NCBI GenBank assembly: GCA_020073085.1
Contig: JAIQFV010000023.1
Coordinates: 35,732 to 99,731 of the forward strand
DNA length: 64,000 bases
DNA from: Terriglobia bacterium
Lineage (GTDB): Bacteria > Acidobacteriota > Terriglobia > JAIQFV01
Direction: 5' to 3'
Positions 10,501-63,881 of the stretch are shown here, piece by piece. A model generated the notes under the pieces. That model was not told the DNA's origin, searched no databases, and saw only the letters and a list, made by a program, of their open reading frames with translations. How positions within the stretch are numbered: position 1 is the first letter of the stretch; each line of letters begins with the position of its first letter. The position numbers were made by a program, and so were the translations under genes.

Positions 10501-10588
10501 CTCGTCTACTTTCCTGGCTCCGACCGCGGACACCAGCTTCTTCAACGGACCGCGTGAATTCCAGCTGGGGTTGAAGTTCATCTGGTAG
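7520..10588 (+). CDS. TonB-dependent receptor, Oar-like, 1022 aa (paralogue of preceding gene)
   Basis: Second copy of the same receptor type. The ATG at 7520 has AAAAAGGAG upstream and begins a signal peptide (MKKSTMLRVMFFMLC... to about residue 24); an upstream in-frame start at 7403 would bury it. Regulatory domain (GSIEGTVTDSSGAVIPGVKI), plug (EDLPVNGRRWSNFVLLTPG, NNNSIDGADDNQAFF, YSAEFGRAAGGTVNAVTKSG) and barrel follow, ending FIW. Long runs are identical to the 3702-6764 protein, including the loop cysteine motifs, so the pair arose by tandem duplication. The stop codon TAG lies inside a dispersed palindrome (10585-10610), whereas the paralogue ends in TAA with no such element. The ligand is unknown. 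Confidence 0.95.
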   Translation: MKKSTMLRVMFFMLCSIVAACLWAQGQGTGSIEGTVTDSSGAVIPGVKIVIQNLGTNATREMTTDASGHYRADILTSGEYSITASQSGFATAKLEKVTVFVGTLTSGDLKMGVAGTQQTVEVTAEAPLTDAEKIAVGGSVGERAIEDLPVNGRRWSNFVLLTPGTIPDGTFGLVSYRGISGLYNNNSIDGADDNQAFFSEANGRTRTPYAISQATIKEFQVGLSNYSAEFGRAAGGTVNAVTKSGTNQFHGEGFYFLRTKAFIAMDPFIKAQGKPQPDERRQQFGGAVGGPLVKDKLFVFGNYDEQLRNFPITTLPNVPLASQACTVPGCAATLAFLNSQVGTFPRQGNNYIFLVKMDWIINQNNTLTGEYNYHKWHSPNGIQTAATVTVSPSANGSDDVRTDLLTTRLTSVLSGSKVNEFRFQFGRDFEFEFPNAPGPSVSFTNGISFGQPNFLPRAAFPDEKKFQFADNYSFVHGNHSFKAGMDIVHYNELLINLFSGGGVYTYGNAFSFNGGSSQLNALAADCPPQATGCVPLASGATTGKHYSSFVQAFDLTGQAGRSSFATTNWNFYFQDNWRVRPSLTLYLGIRYEFQHLPQPGAANPAVPLTGQINQDTNNWSPRIGFSWDVFGNHKTVLRGGYGIYYGVTSSSYVSSSITGNGMIQTSLSLNPTRATDLPLAPVFPNILTTAGGVPGAITLFDPNFVEPVIHSADLAIERELGNGLTISGSYLFSRGLHLFATSDLNLPPQTGTVTYILPNGTPAGAFPFYSGARPNTAVGAVIAAQSVANSTYHGFVFSLNKRFSHGVQVQSNFTLSKAIDTGQTSSTFIPTFPSAFDQNNRSLEKGLSQFDARKRWVTNFLLSPSVSRYTDNAFAHALFNDWQFSGVLTLSDGKAFTPNFSGGSVGLGATNGSNGSFRVPFLAPGSFTTPGFAALDMRFTRNFRVGEKAHFQFIWEGFNLFNRVNYTGFLGNLFNASTKVTGGNAVVTLSNPSASSTFLAPTADTSFFNGPREFQLGLKFIW

Positions 10589-10610
10589 TAACGAATTCAT
10601 TCGTTACTAC
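10585..10610. repeat. Dispersed palindrome with AACGAATTCATTCGTT core
   Basis: A 26-base near-perfect inverted repeat: arms GTAGTAACGAAT and ATTCGTTACTAC around TC. It starts at the last base of the final Trp codon and supplies the receptor's TAG stop. The same core, in both orientations, recurs eight times in the 15.1-16.0 kb tandem array, so this is a dispersed REP-like element. Confidence 0.8.
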
Positions 10611-15012: not shown

Positions 15013-15994
15013 CTGGGGTCCACGTACTGAAGTCGAAACGCCTTCCGCAGAGCGCATGCGGGAGGCGTTTTTTTGTGCCTGAGAGGAACCTGCCTGCTCA
15101 GCGTAGGAACGAATTCATTCGTTGCTCAAATTCGTCAATTGCCACCCCCTGAACGTCCCTCAGGAGCTGCGCTCGTAGGAACGAATGAATTCGTTACTAC
15201 AATTTGAAGTTCATTACTTGCGCGACCAATTGGATGTAGAGGCCGCTCAAGAGAGTGTGGCCAAGAAATAGCTGGGGTCTACGTACTGAAGTCGAAACGC
15301 CTTCCGCAGAGCGCATGCGGGAGGCGTTTTTTTTTGCGCCTGAGAGGAACCTGCCTGCTCAGCGTAGGAACGAATTCATTCGTTGCTCCAACTCGTCAAT
15401 TGCCACCCCCTGAACGTCCCTCAGGAGCTACGCTCGTAGGAACGAATGAATTCGTTACTACAATTTGAGGTTCATTACTTGCGCGACCAATTGGATGTCG
15501 AGGCCGCCCAAGAGAGTGTGGCCAAGAAATGGCTGGGGTCCACGTCCTGAAGTTGAAACGCCTTCCGCAGAGCGCATGCGGGAGGCGTTTTTTTGCGCCT
15601 GAGAGGAACCTGCCTGCTCAGCGTAGTAACGAATTCATTCGTTGCTCCAACTCGTCAATTGCCCCCCCCTGAACGTCCCTCAGGAGCTACGCTCGTAGGA
15701 ACGAATGAATTCGTTACTACAATTTGAGGTTTATTACTTGCGCGACCAATTGGATGTAGAGGCCGCTCAAGAGAGTGTGGCCGAGAAATAGCGGGGGTCC
15801 ACGTACTGAAGTCGAAACGCCTTCCGCAGAGCGCATGCGGGAGGCGTTGTTTTGTGCCTGAGAGGAACCTGCCTGCTCAGCGTAGTAACGAATTCATTCG
15901 TTGCTCCAACTCGTCAATTGCCACCCCCTGAACGTCCCTCAGGTGCTACGCTCGTAGGAACGAATGAATTCGTTACTACAATTTGAGGTTTATT
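14952..15994. repeat. Tandem array, four copies of a 259-261 bp unit
   Basis: Equivalent points fall at 14952, 15212, 15473 and 15732, and a partial restart at 15991. Each unit holds the last ~20 codons of the VWA gene, a rho-independent terminator, the palindrome AACGAATTCATTCGTT and, about 57 bases on, its reverse complement AACGAATGAATTCGTT. Copy 1 is the real gene end; copy 2 keeps the stop codon, copy 3 has TAG changed to TGG, copy 4 has small substitutions. The array ends exactly on the stop codon of lpxD on the opposite strand. Confidence 0.9.
15037..15074 (+). terminator. Terminator after VWA gene, copied in the tandem array
   Basis: Twelve-base stem AACGCCTTCCGC (15037-15048) with GCGGGAGGCGTT (15058-15069), one G-T pair, then a T run to 15074. 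Copies lie at 15296-15334, 15557-15594 and 15816-15854; the last has a T run broken by G and is probably weaker. Confidence 0.85.
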
Positions 15995-55029: not shown

Positions 55030-55858
55030 GATTTTTGCTTTCCCCTCGGGTGCCGCAGGCATGCGCTCTTTGCATGCCTGCGATTACCAACGCCCATTTC
55101 ACGGTCTTGGTGATTGGAATTTGCACTTTGGGTTTTGTTTGGAATTTGGGTTATGGAATTTGGGTTATGGAATTTGGGTTATGGAATTTGGATTTTATTT
55201 GGATTTTGGTCTTTGGGATTTGGAATTTAATAAATTGGGGTGCCGCAGGCATGTGCTCTTTGCATGCCTGCGATTGTTAACGTCCATTTCACGGTTTTGG
55301 TGATTGGAATTTGCACTTTGGGTTTTGTTTGGAATGTGGGTTTTGGAATTTGGATTGTATTTGGATTTTGGCCTTTGGGATTTGGAATTTAATAAATTGG
55401 GGTGCCGCAGGCATGTGCTCTTTGCATGCCTGCGCCTCGCGGTTTCCTTTTTACAGACTCGCTTTTGTTTGGAATGTGGACTTTGGTTTTTGTTTGGAAT
55501 TTGGATTTTGGACTTTGGAATTTCCGCTTCGGTGATTTCTCCCGCCCGCGTCAGATCTCCCCTTCTCCGATTAATTCCCTTGAAATCTGCCGAAGCGCGT
55601 CCTACACTTCGAACTGGCCGGCTTCCCCCCTGTCGGGCCCCTCTTTTCAACACGGTGATTGGCTGGCCGTTGGTGCTCACCTGTTTTTCCTTGTTGCCAC
55701 TCCAGGACGGATTGGCGCTTGCCCTACGGAGGCTTGATGAGTATTGCCAGGGATACTCTCGTTTACTCCCTCTCCATTAGAACTCCAATGATGATTCAAG
55801 GCCGTTTTGGTAACCAGCGACCTTTTCTGTGTCGGGGGGCAACCACATCATGGCCTGG
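55030..55858. repeat. Three G/T-rich repeats with GCAGGCATG hairpins, plus non-coding flank
   Basis: Hairpins GCAGGCATG...CATGCCTGC sit at 55055-55081, 55245-55271 and 55407-55433 (spacing 190 and 162 bases), each introduced by GGTGCCGC. Between them the plus strand is almost pure G/T/A with units such as GGAATTTGGGTTATGGAATT and TTTGGGATTTGGAATTTAAT. These read open in several frames and give spurious F/G/I/W/N/L-rich peptides. From 55530 to 55858 composition returns to normal with no gene recognised. Confidence 0.8.
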
Positions 55859-57844: not shown

Positions 57845-58408
57845 TCCGGCTGCACTCCATAACCCATTGTTCGACCCAAGATAGAAGAAAGTATGCAACA
57901 AAGGGGGTCAGCGAATTTCGGTGCCCGACCCGAACAATGCTGGCGGGCGAAGTTCTGGATTCATCAATAAGCACCTGTGGGAGAGAATTTCAATGTGCAC
58001 CTATACAATCAATCGAATTTTGTTTTTTCGAGCCGCAGTTGGAGTCCTTGCCGCACTGTTATGGTCTTGCACAGTCGCCCAGACGGATTGCGGACAAATT
58101 TGTAGAAAATTTGTAGGGTCAGGTCGAAATTTTCAATTTTTCTCATCCGCCATAATCACAATTGAGAATTTAGACTTGACATATGCTTGTTGGTTGGCTG
58201 ACGCGGTAATAAACCCTCGTATCCCGTAAGTATGCGTACTTCGGGATTGATATTGGGCTGAACTCTATGAGGATACCTTGGATGCTATTGTCGTATGACG
58301 TAATGCCACTCCTTGTGTTTTTGTTTACTGTTGTGGCTTTTGCGAGGGTCGCTTGGGGACTGGGGCTGACCTTCGGCAGGACGAGAAACGTCTTCGCGCT
58401 AAGCGAGA
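57845..58408 (+). other. Intergenic region with two doubtful short frames
   Basis: A frame at 57993-58229 (78 codons, GGGAGAGAA ahead of its ATG) begins MCTYTINRILFFRAAVGVLA and has a lipobox-like LLWSC, so a tiny lipoprotein is possible. A second frame, 58267-58437 (56 codons), begins MRIPWMLLSYDVMPLLVFLF; its last 15 or so codons are read from the REP-like element at 58409, so it is probably a truncated remnant. AT-richer than the window average. Neither is firmly supported. Confidence 0.3.
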
Positions 58409-58838
58409 GTGCCAGGTCTCAAAATTCAACAGGTTGATTGTTGAGACCAAGCACCAACAATAATGTCCGGCTCGTCCAGGTCCGGAAATTGAGAGTCACC
58501 ACCCGGCATGCCAGTCCCCTTCGAGGGGACTTGTCCTAATACAGCCCGCCGGTTTACCGGCGGGAGACTTGGCAAGCTGGAAGTCGTACCCCGATTCATC
58601 GGGGTTGAGTGGGAATGGGTCGGTCGTTAACGGCCGACCGGGGTATGAGGTCAACCCCGATGAATCGGGGTGCAAAACCGAGGGGGGTGGGCTTCCCCGC
58701 CGGTAAACCGGCGGGCTGTACGCAATCAAGCCCCCCGAGGGGGACTGGGATCTCTCGCATGGATCGCGCTGTGGCCCGGAAGAATGCGAAGGTGCCAGAT
58801 CTCTCAATTCAACAAGTTGATGGTTGAGACCCGGGACC
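58409..58838. repeat. Mirror-ordered palindrome unit A
   Basis: Bracketed by REP-like elements (GGTCTCAAAATTCAAC ... TTGAGACC at 58415-58448; a diverged copy at 58790-58838). Inside, in order: GTCCCCTTCGAGGGGAC (58514-58530), CCCGCCGGTTTACCGGCGGG (58545-58564), ACCCCGATTCATCGGGGT (58588-58605), GGTCGGTCGTTAACGG with CCGACC (58618-58639), ACCCCGATGAATCGGGGT (58654-58671), CCCGCCGGTAAACCGGCGGG (58696-58715) and CCCCCCGAGGGGG (58731-58743). Palindromes 5 and 6 are exact reverse complements of 3 and 2; 7 approximates 1. The whole unit is thus an inverted repeat centred on GTTAAC. Confidence 0.9.
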
Positions 58839-58885
58839 TCCAATTCTTATCAGCAACAGGGGGTCAGGCACCGACATTCGCCAAC

Positions 58886-59360
58886 TCTCAAAATTCAACA
58901 AGTTGATTATTGAGACTAAGCACCAACAATTAAGTCCGGCTCGTCCGGGTCCGGAAATTGAGAGTCACCGCCCGGGCATGCCAGTCCCCTTTGAGGGGAC
59001 TTGTCTTAATACAGCCCGCCGGTTTACCGGCGGGAACGGGCGCGTTGGAGGTCGTACCCCGATTCATCGGGGTTGGGAAATGGGTCGGTCGTTAACGGCC
59101 GACCCGGAGATAAGGTCAACCCCGATGAATCGGGGTGCAAAACCGAGGGGGGTGGGGTTCCTCGCCGGTAAACCGGCGGGCTGTACGCAATCAAGTCCCC
59201 CGAGGGGGACTGGGATCCCGGTCGCGCTGTGCCCGGAAGCGGTGCTGAGCGAGTCGGGAAGCGAAAGTGCCAGGTCTCATATTTCAACAAGTTGATTATT
59301 GAGGCCAGGCACGCGCGAAGGTCTCAAAATCAAACCAGTGGAGTATTGAGACCAGGTACC
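58886..59360. repeat. Mirror-ordered palindrome unit B
   Basis: Second copy of unit A with the same order: GTCCCCTTTGAGGGGAC (58984-59000), CCCGCCGGTTTACCGGCGGG (59015-59034), ACCCCGATTCATCGGGGT (59056-59073), a GGGTCGG...CCGACCC palindrome centred on GTTAAC (59082-59105), ACCCCGATGAATCGGGGT (59119-59136), CGCCGGTAAACCGGCG (59163-59178), AGTCCCCCGAGGGGGACT (59194-59211). Left REP-like element at 58886-58917, right ones at 59265-59312 and 59317-59360. Spacer text between palindromes differs from unit A, while the palindromes are nearly unchanged. Confidence 0.9.
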
Positions 59361-61442: not shown

Positions 61443-61603
61443 GGACGGGGTGGCGCACACATGCGCAGTTGGCCCGCCGCGGCGGGCGGCCTTCTGTGGA
61501 ACCTCGTCACGAGGCTGGAGAGTATGGCGATTCTTTACCGCATACATCGCAAAAAACGCGATGTATGCGCCACCCGGCCAAAGCATCGCCTGGAGGTAGG
61601 TTT
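61443..61603. other. Intergenic leader of the hairpin array
   Basis: Contains GGTGGCGCACACATGCGC at about 61450, a GGCCCGCCGCGGCGGGCGGCC palindrome shortened here as CCCGCCGCGGCGGG (about 61472-61487), and a hairpin GCATACATCGC with GCGATGTATGC around 61540-61570. These resemble the hairpins near 55-56 kb. No gene is seen. Confidence 0.55.
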
Positions 61604-62122
61604 GGTAGCCTCGCCACGCTTTCTGTGGCGGGGGCATGTGACCGCGGCTTGGATTGAACGAGGGTTGATGACCAAACGCTCGCAAAAGCCCCCGCCGGCA
61701 CAGAACGCAGGCGGGGCTACCAAAGCATCGCCTGGAGGTAGGTCTGGTAGCCTCGCCACGCTTTTTGTGGCGGGGGCCTGTGACTGCGGCCTGGATTGAA
61801 TCAGACATGGTGACCGAATGCTCGCAAAAGCCCCCGCCAGCACAGAACGCAGGCGGGGCTACCAAAGCATCGACTGGAGGCAGGTCTGGCAGCCTCGCCA
61901 CGCTTTTTGTGGCGGGGGCAGGTGACTGTGACCGAACGCTCGCAAAAGCCCCCGCCGGCACAGAACGCAGGCGGGGCTACCAAAGCATCGCCTGGAGGTA
62001 GGTTTGGTAGCCTCGCCACGCTTTTTGTGGCGGGGGCCTGTGACTGCGGCCTGGATTGAATTAGACATGGTAACCGAACGCTCGCAAAAGCCCCCGCCGG
62101 CACAGAACGCAGGCGGGGCTAC
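61604..62122. repeat. Tandem array of four MITE-like hairpin elements
   Basis: Starts of GGTAGCCTCGCCACGC fall at 61604, 61746, 61888 (with GGCAGCC) and 62006, giving units of 142, 142, 118 and about 117 bases. Each has a left hairpin CGCCACGCTTTTTGTGGCGG, a GGATTGAA(C/T) middle (missing in the short third unit), then CTCGCAAAAGCCCCCGCC, and ends GGCGGGGCTACCAAAGC, the inverse of the left end. The last unit ends 22 bases before the next gene's ATG. A frame reading through the array from 62004 is spurious before 62145. Confidence 0.88.
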
Positions 62123-62144
62123 CAAAGCGAGCTGGAGAGGTAAC

Positions 62145-63881
62145 ATGAAAAAAAGGGTGACATGCTCCGTTTGGGTCGTGCTCTACATTGCGGTGTTTAC
62201 CGGCACGGCAACCCTGCGGGCGCAAGATACGCGGGACGTCGTCGAGCCCCGTCTACCGCCGGTGTGCATGGCCCTCACGGCGCAACTGTCTGCTCCCGGG
62301 GGAGTTTTGCCGGAAACGAGCGAACGGACACCGGACACGGCCCGGATCCAGGAGGCGATCGACCATTGTCCGCCCGGGCGAGCAGTCAAACTGAAGTCAG
62401 CTGGCACTAGAAACATCTTCCTTTCCGGGCCGCTGCTGCTGAAGGCCGGTGTAACGCTCCTAGTGGACGCCAATACGGCGCTGTTCGCGTCGCGCAATCC
62501 CCGCGATTACGATCTCACGGCCGGAAGCTGCGGCGTCGTCAACGAGAAAGGGCACGGATGCAAGCCCTGGATACTGGCGGAGAACGCCCCCGCAAGCGGC
62601 ATCATGGGCGACGGGGCGCTGGACGGGCGGGGCGGCGCGAAGCTGCTCGGCCAAGACGTGTCCTGGTGGGACCTGGCTCATACCGCCAAGGTCCTCGATA
62701 AGCAGCAGAGTGTCCCGCGGATGTTAGTCGTGCGGAAGTCTGACGATTTTACGTTGTATCGCATCACGCTGCGTAACTCCCCCAACTTTCACGTGGGGGT
62801 GGAACGCACCAATGGATTCACTGCCTGGGGCGTCAGGATCCTCACCCCGAAAACCGCGAGAAACACTGACGGCATCGATCCTTCGTCCTCCACCAACGTG
62901 ACAATCACCCACTGCTTCATCGCAACGGGAGACGACAATATTGCGATCAAGTCGGGGAGCGCGGGTTCAGCTTCGAATATCACCATCGCCGACAACCATT
63001 TCTATAGCGGCCACGGGATGTCGATCGGCAGCGGCACCAGCGGCGGTGTAAGCGGTGTTCGCGTGATCGACCTGAGCATCGACGGCGCGGACAACGGGAT
63101 CCGCATCAAGTCGGATCGCAGCCGTGGGGGGCTGGTGCGCGATGTCGTCTATGAAAATGTGTGCATGCGGAACGTCACCAACCCGATTGTCCTGAATACG
63201 AGGTACACCACGTTCCCTGGAAACCTCCTGCCGCTCTATCGCGACATCTTCCTGAAGAACGTGCACAGCGTAACGCCGGGCGCTATCATGCTGCTTGGCC
63301 TCGATGAGCAGCACCGAATGGGTGTGGGCCTCGACAACGTCACGGTGGATGGCTTGCAGGCGGATGATATCCGGGCAGAGCATGCCGAGGTGCGTGTCGG
63401 CCCGCGGCGCGGCAATGTCGAGCCCCGCGGAAACGACGTCTCGGTGAGCAGTGCCGGTGTCGAGCCTGGCGTTGCGGTGGATTGTGGAAACCGTTTTCCC
63501 GCGTTTGCGGACAACACGACTGCCCCCGCGGCGGCGATGACGGTACCTCCAGAGGATCCGACTTTCTACGTGGCGGCATCGGGAACGGGCGACTACTACT
63601 CTATCCAGCGCGCGATCGATGTCGCCCCGCCCGACGGCGCCGTCATTTCCATCGCTCCCGGCACGTATCGAGAAGCGCTGACGATAGCAAAACCCAATAT
63701 CCGGCTGCACAGCCCCTACCCGGACGCCCGGAAGACCGTCATTGTTTCCGACAGCAGTGCCGACACCCCAGGCGGCACCGTGAAGTCGGCCACCATGACT
63801 GTACTGGCCGATAATTTCGTCGCCGAAAATCTGACCATTGCCAGCGGAGAAATGGGGACAGCCCCAATACTGTTCATTTAA
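62145..63881 (+). CDS. Secreted GH28 polygalacturonase fused to a truncated pectinesterase domain
   Basis: 578 residues from ATG 62145 with GGAGAGG upstream; signal peptide to about residue 27 (MKKRVTCSVWVVLYIAVFTG...LRAQ). GH28 right-handed beta helix with all catalytic motifs: NTDGIDPSSS, ATGDDNIAIKSG, SGHGMSIGSGT and GIRIKSDRSRGG. From about residue 480 a pectinesterase domain begins: DPTFYVAASGTGDYYSIQRA, IAPGTYREALTIAKPNIRL, TVKSATMTVLADNFVAENLT. It breaks off after NLTIA; the next 12 residues are unrelated and end in TAA, and pectinesterase-like NDFNRDGA appears immediately after the stop. The pectinesterase active site is not in this frame. The GH28 half could still be active against polygalacturonan. 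Confidence 0.82.
   Translation: MKKRVTCSVWVVLYIAVFTGTATLRAQDTRDVVEPRLPPVCMALTAQLSAPGGVLPETSERTPDTARIQEAIDHCPPGRAVKLKSAGTRNIFLSGPLLLKAGVTLLVDANTALFASRNPRDYDLTAGSCGVVNEKGHGCKPWILAENAPASGIMGDGALDGRGGAKLLGQDVSWWDLAHTAKVLDKQQSVPRMLVVRKSDDFTLYRITLRNSPNFHVGVERTNGFTAWGVRILTPKTARNTDGIDPSSSTNVTITHCFIATGDDNIAIKSGSAGSASNITIADNHFYSGHGMSIGSGTSGGVSGVRVIDLSIDGADNGIRIKSDRSRGGLVRDVVYENVCMRNVTNPIVLNTRYTTFPGNLLPLYRDIFLKNVHSVTPGAIMLLGLDEQHRMGVGLDNVTVDGLQADDIRAEHAEVRVGPRRGNVEPRGNDVSVSSAGVEPGVAVDCGNRFPAFADNTTAPAAAMTVPPEDPTFYVAASGTGDYYSIQRAIDVAPPDGAVISIAPGTYREALTIAKPNIRLHSPYPDARKTVIVSDSSADTPGGTVKSATMTVLADNFVAENLTIASGEMGTAPILFI

Follow-up and report, generated by a model that had tools for sequence, protein, structure and literature searches.

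Background

IS608-type ends carry same-strand hairpins. Among the Y1 TnpA proteins, subclass 1.2 is characterized in PMC6006769 by the motifs DH[IV]H, WQ and YIKNQKEHH; it is entered as "REP: no" in Table 1 of that paper, generally occurs without typical terminal hairpins and is found mainly in Cyanobacteria and Bacteroidetes. The same paper describes a class 3 TnpA of Solibacter usitatus, present in about 600 copies, which resembles both an insertion sequence and a REPtron. REP dimers with structured spacers, as set out in PMC3733652, are the nearest published relative that we found of hairpins internal to such an element, and a seven-hairpin architecture was not described in the RAYT/REPIN and acidobacterial-repeat literature as far as it was accessible, subscription papers being thinly covered.

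The repeat analyzed here lies in a stretch of 64,000 nucleotides (hereafter the window; contig C23, positions 35732-99731, of a Terriglobia genome designated G000). It resembles the REPIN/BIME elements associated with RAYT (TnpAREP) in its inverted pair of REP-like hairpins, outward foot tetranucleotide and dispersed copies, and in that one single-copy Y1 gene (at C25, and at C22 of the related genome G001) is bracketed by similar repeats. In contrast, it has three hairpins per half and a central one where a REPIN has one per half, its foot is ACAG (NNAG in relatives) rather than GT[AG]G, its candidate enzyme has a YxxNQxxHH signature and scores under the REP_Tyr_transpos cut-off whereas RAYT is of class 2 with YxxNP, and the seven full-length copies of G000, together with partial copies on seven contigs, are few by REPIN standards. 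As tests for a GTAG foot and a class-2 enzyme failed, we do not file the element as a REPIN, though it appears REPIN-like in its working. With IS200/IS605 elements and their gene-less derivatives of the MITE/PATE type it shares hairpin ends and an enzyme that passes the IS200/IS605 NCBIfam model, and no target duplication is visible at the one site compared, where the junction is too diverged to define a target; unlike those, its ends are reverse complements of each other with an ordered three-hairpin series, and its tnpA is single-copy in the assembly rather than a multicopy insertion sequence. Compared with subclass 1.2, as that group is presented in PMC6006769, the C25 TnpA has the DH[IV]H, WQ and YxxNQxxHH motifs, the Y motif differing in two to three residues, and a low copy number, but multi-hairpin ends and miniature copies, and it occurs in Acidobacteriota; its signature is subclass-1.2-like. 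Class 3, as described there, is likewise an acidobacterial Y1 gene with several atypical flanking hairpins and copies across the genome, but has YV[VI][AENY]EQ and a CnGA foot in place of YVQNQREHH and ACAG, and we rejected a class 3 TnpA as the cognate enzyme on account of this unmatched motif. We propose that the seven-hairpin repeat is probably a REPIN-like miniature transposon without a gene, which a Y1 IS200/IS605-type TnpA encoded elsewhere in the genome would mobilize in trans.

Architecture of the two window units

Two units, A and B (Table 1), each comprise seven GC-rich hairpins (P2-P8) in mirror order around GTTAAC, on which the middle hairpin P5 is centred. P3/P7 and P4/P6 are reverse-complement pairs, with loops of TTTA against TAAA and TC against GA on the left and right sides, and ACAGCCCGCC and GGCGGGCTGT are mirrored as well; the outermost pair, P2/P8, is the loosest and less exact. 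Six of the seven hairpins in either unit passed a hairpin test (at least 7 stem positions, 1 mismatch allowed), whereas dinucleotide shuffles (300 each) averaged 0.24 and 0.23 passing hairpins and never had more than 2. Alignment of each unit to its own reverse complement scored 95 and 102 against a mean of about 0 and a maximum of 24 (200 shuffles each); these shuffles rule out chance. The mirrored series, the reverse-complement relation of its right-hand hairpins to the left-hand ones and the mirrored ACAGCCCGCC/GGCGGGCTGT had all been noted in a preliminary description of this DNA and are borne out, at the places given there and far above shuffles. The unit size of about 400 bp given in it needs correction: the elements measure 229-234 bp and recur with a period of 458-470 bp, as a tandem duplication whose period includes a separate palindromic repeat. 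The latter (GGTCTCAAAATTCAAC..GTTGAGACC), previously taken for REP-like flanks or ends, belongs to a different dispersed family, with five copies at 58401-59359 and four more matches on C1, C56 and C9. The GGTCTCAA repeats that flank the window copies form a family separate from the element and were rejected as its ends, being absent from the other displayed copies except the close relative at G001:C43.

Table 1. Positions in the window of the hairpins, feet and adjoining repeats of the two seven-hairpin units
Feature	Position	Strand	Basis
Unit A, whole element of seven hairpins (P2-P8), 234 bp	58513..58746	.	sequence; homology limits of other copies
A-P2 (H1) AGTCCCC..GGGGACT	58513..58531	+	sequence
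A foot ACAG, outer side of H2	58541..58544	+	ACAG in 24/26 half-units
A-P3 (H2) CCCGCCGGTTTACCGGCGGG	58545..58564	+	sequence, copy alignment
A-P4 (H3) ACCCCGATTCATCGGGGT	58588..58605	+	sequence, copy alignment
A-P5 centre GGTCGG..GTTAAC..CCGACC, corresponding to the H4 that follows tnpA directly	58618..58639	+	
A-P6 (H3')	58654..58671	-	
A-P7 (H2')	58696..58715	-	
A mirrored foot, CTGT on +	58716..58719	-	
A-P8 (H1'), imperfect in unit A	58729..58746	-	
Unit B, complete seven-hairpin element, 229 bp	58983..59211	.	
B-P2 (H1)	58983..59001	+	
B foot ACAG	59011..59014	+	
B-P3 (H2)	59015..59034	+	
B-P4 (H3)	59056..59073	+	
B-P5 centre GGGTCGGTCGTTAACGGCCGACCC	59082..59105	+	
B-P6 (H3')	59119..59136	-	
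B-P7 (H2'), 1 arm mismatch	59161..59180	-	
B mirrored foot, CTGT on +	59181..59184	-	
B-P8 (H1')	59194..59211	-	
Left extension gtccggctcgtcc..aattgagagtc, outside hairpins, common to a subset of copies	58462..58512	+	
Separate 54-nt palindromic repeat (family D1), 1st of five, outside element	58401..58454	+	repeat comparison

Copies in the genome and its relatives

A 971-bp query returned 58 matching pieces from G000, and single inspection of the stronger ones resolved seven full-length copies at six loci (A and B of the window, C15, two loci on C2, C11 and C6, the last with its final hairpin broken), a copy on C12 that has lost its right half, and partial copies on C43, C34, C55, C11, C10 and C8, spread in all over eleven contigs. 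Scanning GTDB with P4-gap-GTTAAC recovered one other assembly only, the MAG Terriglobia SRVP_39 of the same genus (G001), with the scope that records of the window genome or very close ones may be omitted from the scan; this MAG holds six full-length copies (C43, C87, C68, C31, C71 and C17). A class-wide search of 399 genomes (E up to 1e-6, two candidates scored per genome) gave matches in G000, G001 and G002, the last with one end module. G002, from another genus of the same family, has its own seven-hairpin chain at C34:40877 (L040). The hairpin order thus recurs across G000 and in G001, and is not unique to the locus at which it was first noticed. Alignment of 26 halves from 13 copies showed that the left half and, once reverse-complemented, the right half follow one consensus, which reads inward as a hairpin, TG, about 7 nt, TACAG and CCCGCCGG-TTTA-CCGGCGGG (H2), followed by 25-30 nt, ACCCCGATTCATCGGGGTTG, 10-14 nt and the central palindrome; the foot ACAG is present in 24 of the 26.

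Whole or in part, the element occupies five loci in both G000 and G001, two of the five pairs being truncated or partial. The copy at G001:C31 is missing at the matching site on G000:C43, where the flanks lie 20 bp apart against 451 bp in G001; by eye, this 451-bp segment comprises some 180 nt of left extension, followed by the seven hairpins and roughly 20 nt more. No target-site duplication is visible at this sole comparable site, whose junction is too diverged to define a target, and the missing copy could reflect a deletion in G000. Relative to C31, the right homology of copies that reach P8 stops at or within 12 nt of that hairpin. On the left, about half of the copies lose homology within 10 nt of P2, and the window copies, C15, C71, C2a, C68, C11, C17, C12 and C87 remain homologous for 27-181 nt more. 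This left extension (L101:4703-4883), which reaches a length of about 180 nt, travels with about half of the copies and, being also part of the presence/absence segment, is not explained by a simple model in which the hairpins are the ends. The comparison at G000:C6 is unclean: its copy is absent from G001, but the G001 site holds another mirrored hairpin chain. This second chain (G001:C53:38720-39150, L121) is made up of CACCCCGATTTATCGGGGTG / AACCGATTCATCGGTT / AACCGTTGAAACGGTT / CACCCCGATGAATCGGGGTG, and a Y1 gene at G000:C30:37034 (L070) is flanked by hairpins similar to it; long perfect palindromes on AGGGACTGTCCCTAGGGACTGTCCCT lie both upstream and downstream of the C6 copy (L113). The flanks of the C2b copy map to two different G001 contigs. 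Orthology of the window copies with G001:C43:46723 was considered and rejected, as the gene to their left has its counterpart on G001:C1 and none of the other flanking genes was found in G001.

A Y1 transposase gene between similar ordered ends

At G000:C25 hairpins and gene occur in the order H1-H2-H3-tnpA-H4-H3'-H2'-H1', the tnpA being of the IS200/IS605-type Y1 family and single-copy in the assembly, and its orthologue at G001:C22 likewise stands as one Y1 gene between similar end modules (tnpA-locus modules L029, L066 and L057). Outward from the gene, the left side presents AGCCCCGTTCACGGGGCT (H3), CCCGCCGGTTTACCGGCGGG (H2) with TACAG, and GGCCCGGTTCACCGGGCC (H1), with H2-H1 repeated; the right side begins with CGCCCGTCAACGGGCG (H4) 13-16 nt past the stop codon and continues with H3', H2' and H1'. 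The dispersed P2-P8 copies match this locus position by position, with P5 standing for tnpA plus H4. Since P5 variants contain CCCGTTAACGGG (C10, C8) or CGTCAACGG (C6), P5 resembles H4, and the miniature corresponds to the chain minus tnpA, namely 3+1+3. The linker and foot before H2, TGATTGCGTACAG, are identical in C25 and the right half in the window; near-identity between C25 and the dispersed copies is confined to H2, the ACAG foot and the H1-H2 linker, the stems of H1 and H3 being different.

The C25 TnpA (L066:6822-7241), of 140 amino acids, has the motifs DHVH, HWQEG and YVQNQREHH. Its Y1_Tnp domain scores 81.2 bits, above the cut-off; against the NCBIfam model transpos_IS200 (NF033573) it reaches 74.8 bits (cut-off 55), and against REP_Tyr_transpos (NF047646) it stays below the cut-off of 80 with 24.8 bits. 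The nearest solved structure is that of the IS608 TnpA (E 6.9e-6). The best relative of this protein in G002 is 37% identical, though G002 has a seven-hairpin copy.

Hairpins flanking other Y1 transposases

Among 65 Y1 matches in G000, G001 and G002, 61 were examined (four second-domain or neighbouring matches being left out), of which 53 are flanked by 400 bp or more on either side. Two or more flank hairpins matched in mirror order at 8 of the 18 YxxNQxxHH genes, at 1 of the 23 class-2 genes and at 4 of the 12 unassigned ones in these three genomes, totals in which orthologous genes count twice. When downstream flanks were swapped within the 18 YxxNQxxHH genes (10,000 permutations), the sum averaged 4.3 and never exceeded 24, against the observed 40. 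Ten of these 18 have fewer than two mirrored flank hairpins, and two of the ten were recovered in a wider set; the chains at C1 and G001:C4, hidden in the 18-gene set by ORF-based ends, show three hairpins each there. Class relatives of the C25 TnpA occur in 83 of 399 genomes (E up to 1e-12), and 30 loci from this search together with two others made up the wider set, 29 of them with enough flank: eight have at least two mirrored hairpins, six at least three and 21 fewer than two, the sum being 38 against a permuted mean of 4.5 and a maximum of 17. A phylum-wide draw of 21 matches yielded 18 loci (two own matches and one without a locus were left out), with at least one mirrored hairpin at ten, at least two at four and at least three at one, summing to 16 against a mean of 5.2 and a maximum of 13.

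In a tree of 44 C25-type proteins and four class-2 outgroups, the C25 TnpA falls in a clade of ten from four families (support 100/99), eight of which are multi-hairpin, that is, with at least two hairpins mirrored across the gene; of the remaining two, G023 has two mirrored hairpins by eye and G052 has one. The multi-hairpin state requires seven changes over the tree against a shuffled mean of 11.5, with an equally low value in 1 of 500 shuffles, and is clustered without a single origin. Scoring the hairpins in direct rather than mirror order gave 31 against 40 for the 18 genes, 26 against 38 for the 29 loci and 17 against 16 for the 18 phylum loci, whereas in the clade of ten the mirror-order sum is 24 against 14. 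Direct order scores nearly as high outside this clade because the palindromes are strand-symmetric and some loci are arrays; hence, the presence of matching hairpins on the two sides of the gene is secure in all sets, but their mirror order mainly within that clade.

The outer foot of H2 contains NNAG, immediately or with an offset of one base, in all 17 hairpins of the foot comparison, and at most H2 hairpins of the phylum set, with exceptions; the feet in relatives are GTAG, CTAG, TCAG, CCAG or TTAG. Gene-less mirrored chains were also found in G023 (C10, C6, C1 and C12) and in G008, where there are 18 matching pieces, four of them displayed, with CTAG feet on both sides; the outer flanks of these G008 chains (L193, L203, L208 and L213) also share an inverted sequence, TGGATTATTCATGAA.. 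G052 contains no match to the G037 chain. The C1 chain is dispersed at one further place each in G000 (C6:14742) and G001 (C90:31406), so that gene-less copies are not general.

Folding and stem covariation

Folding was carried out on unit B, where the lowest-energy DNA structure is one long stem on either strand (-88.2 and -82.7 kcal/mol, against -62.7 and -59.5 kcal/mol for the local hairpin chain) because the mirror order lets the two halves pair; RNA energies also favour the long stem, with z = -15.9. The folded form is ambiguous between long stem and chain, and the earlier view that either strand would form nearly the same hairpin chain needs correction for this unit, whose lowest-energy DNA form on both strands is the long stem. 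Over the 13 full-length copies, 95.5% of pairing cells are paired against 92.7% in shuffles, and 8 of 60 stem pairs have changed in both partners, where shuffles give 3.6 and sliding the partners gives 0-3, which supports the compensating stem changes noted previously over random divergence of the arms; one P7 pair is unpaired in 9 of the 13. At three loci common to G000 and G001 there are 16 differences in 359 stem sites against 33 in 285 spacer sites (Fisher p = 9e-4), one of the three showing the opposite trend (5/119 in stems, 1/94 in spacers). Slower stem change fits selection, homogenization or template-driven repair of the palindromes; mobility alone does not require it, and the simple model leaves it unexplained.

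Proposed mechanism and alternatives

The element best fits the description of a gene-less derivative whose parent would be a single-copy, IS200/IS605-like transposase unit with composite ends. With the cleavage and foot logic taken from PMC6006769 and PMC8266576, we envisage that, while the DNA is single-stranded, a dimer of TnpA guided by the outward-facing foot would bind the H2 of either end and would cut and rejoin one strand, whereby the piece between the ends would be copied or moved. We predict that H1, H3 and P5 determine the specificity of the enzyme or ensure that H2 is presented correctly. The pair of units in the window arose by tandem duplication of one copy along with the neighbouring unrelated repeat. 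How TnpA acts, what each hairpin does, which strand is used and the movement itself are all inferred. This simple model explains neither the lack of a close TnpA in G002 nor why gene-less copies of the C1 chain are nearly absent.

The first guess of the preliminary description, that a transposase elsewhere moves a non-autonomous element, is the best supported account, since similar ordered ends bracket a Y1 gene; this bracketing also speaks against a structured RNA or host-selected regulatory element, such as an attenuator or bidirectional terminator, that is repetitive by coincidence. The stem covariation, the slower change of stems at the common loci (with one locus opposite) and the RNA fold of unit B would suit such an RNA, but the hairpins are palindromic on both strands, sequence inspection reveals no T-run after P2 or P8, and one copy is missing from one of the two species, making this account very unlikely. 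A known RNA family was rejected, the best Rfam score being 22.7 bits against a gathering score of 112.

BIME-like platforms bind gyrase, IHF or nucleoid proteins. Were the repeat a platform of this kind for chromosome organization, its link to tnpA would be historical only, and stem conservation over the common loci taken together and the persistence of copies, some truncated or partial, at the five loci of both species could be understood in these terms; yet the copies are few, the partial ones are patchy and there are presence/absence differences, which makes it improbable, even with the host-physiology roles of REP/BIME reported in PMC6006769. Spread by recombination or segmental duplication alone, with no dedicated transposase, appears the least probable: the tandem duplication in the window and the extension travelling outside the hairpins speak for it, whereas the dispersal over eleven contigs, the homology limits near P8 and, in the other half of the copies, near P2, and the presence/absence difference between matching flanks run counter to it.

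Returning to the transposon reading, we tentatively suggest, as a wider possibility that we hold to be somewhat doubtful, a distinct acidobacterial IS200/IS605-like branch with composite ends of 2-3 different hairpins, ordered and mirrored between the two ends, of which the middle one would carry the guide foot and the others act as a family barcode, the 3-1-3 elements being its passengers. If so, the gene-less 3-1-3 elements would give the 1.2-like TnpA group the hairpin substrate reported missing. A striking unnamed repeat is here linked to a transposase, and Y1 transposases with the signature of a group described as REP-less are seen to be bracketed by ordered multi-hairpin ends and to have miniature copies. 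Such ordered ends offer a simple genome search for elements of this type, and the C25 TnpA and the seven-hairpin element provide a test pair for hairpin reading and REPIN-like spread.

Other repeats in the window

Four tandem copies with a period of about 260 bp at 15105-15979 (also 10585-10610) contain a palindrome pair with GTAG (GTAGGAACGAATGAATTCGTTACTAC); these pairs look like classical REP-type doublets of another family. At 55195-55680 and 61535-62146, overlapping mechanical ORFs on the minus strand contain short repeats that translate as the recurring words RRHAKSTCLRHP and PPPQKAWRGYQ.
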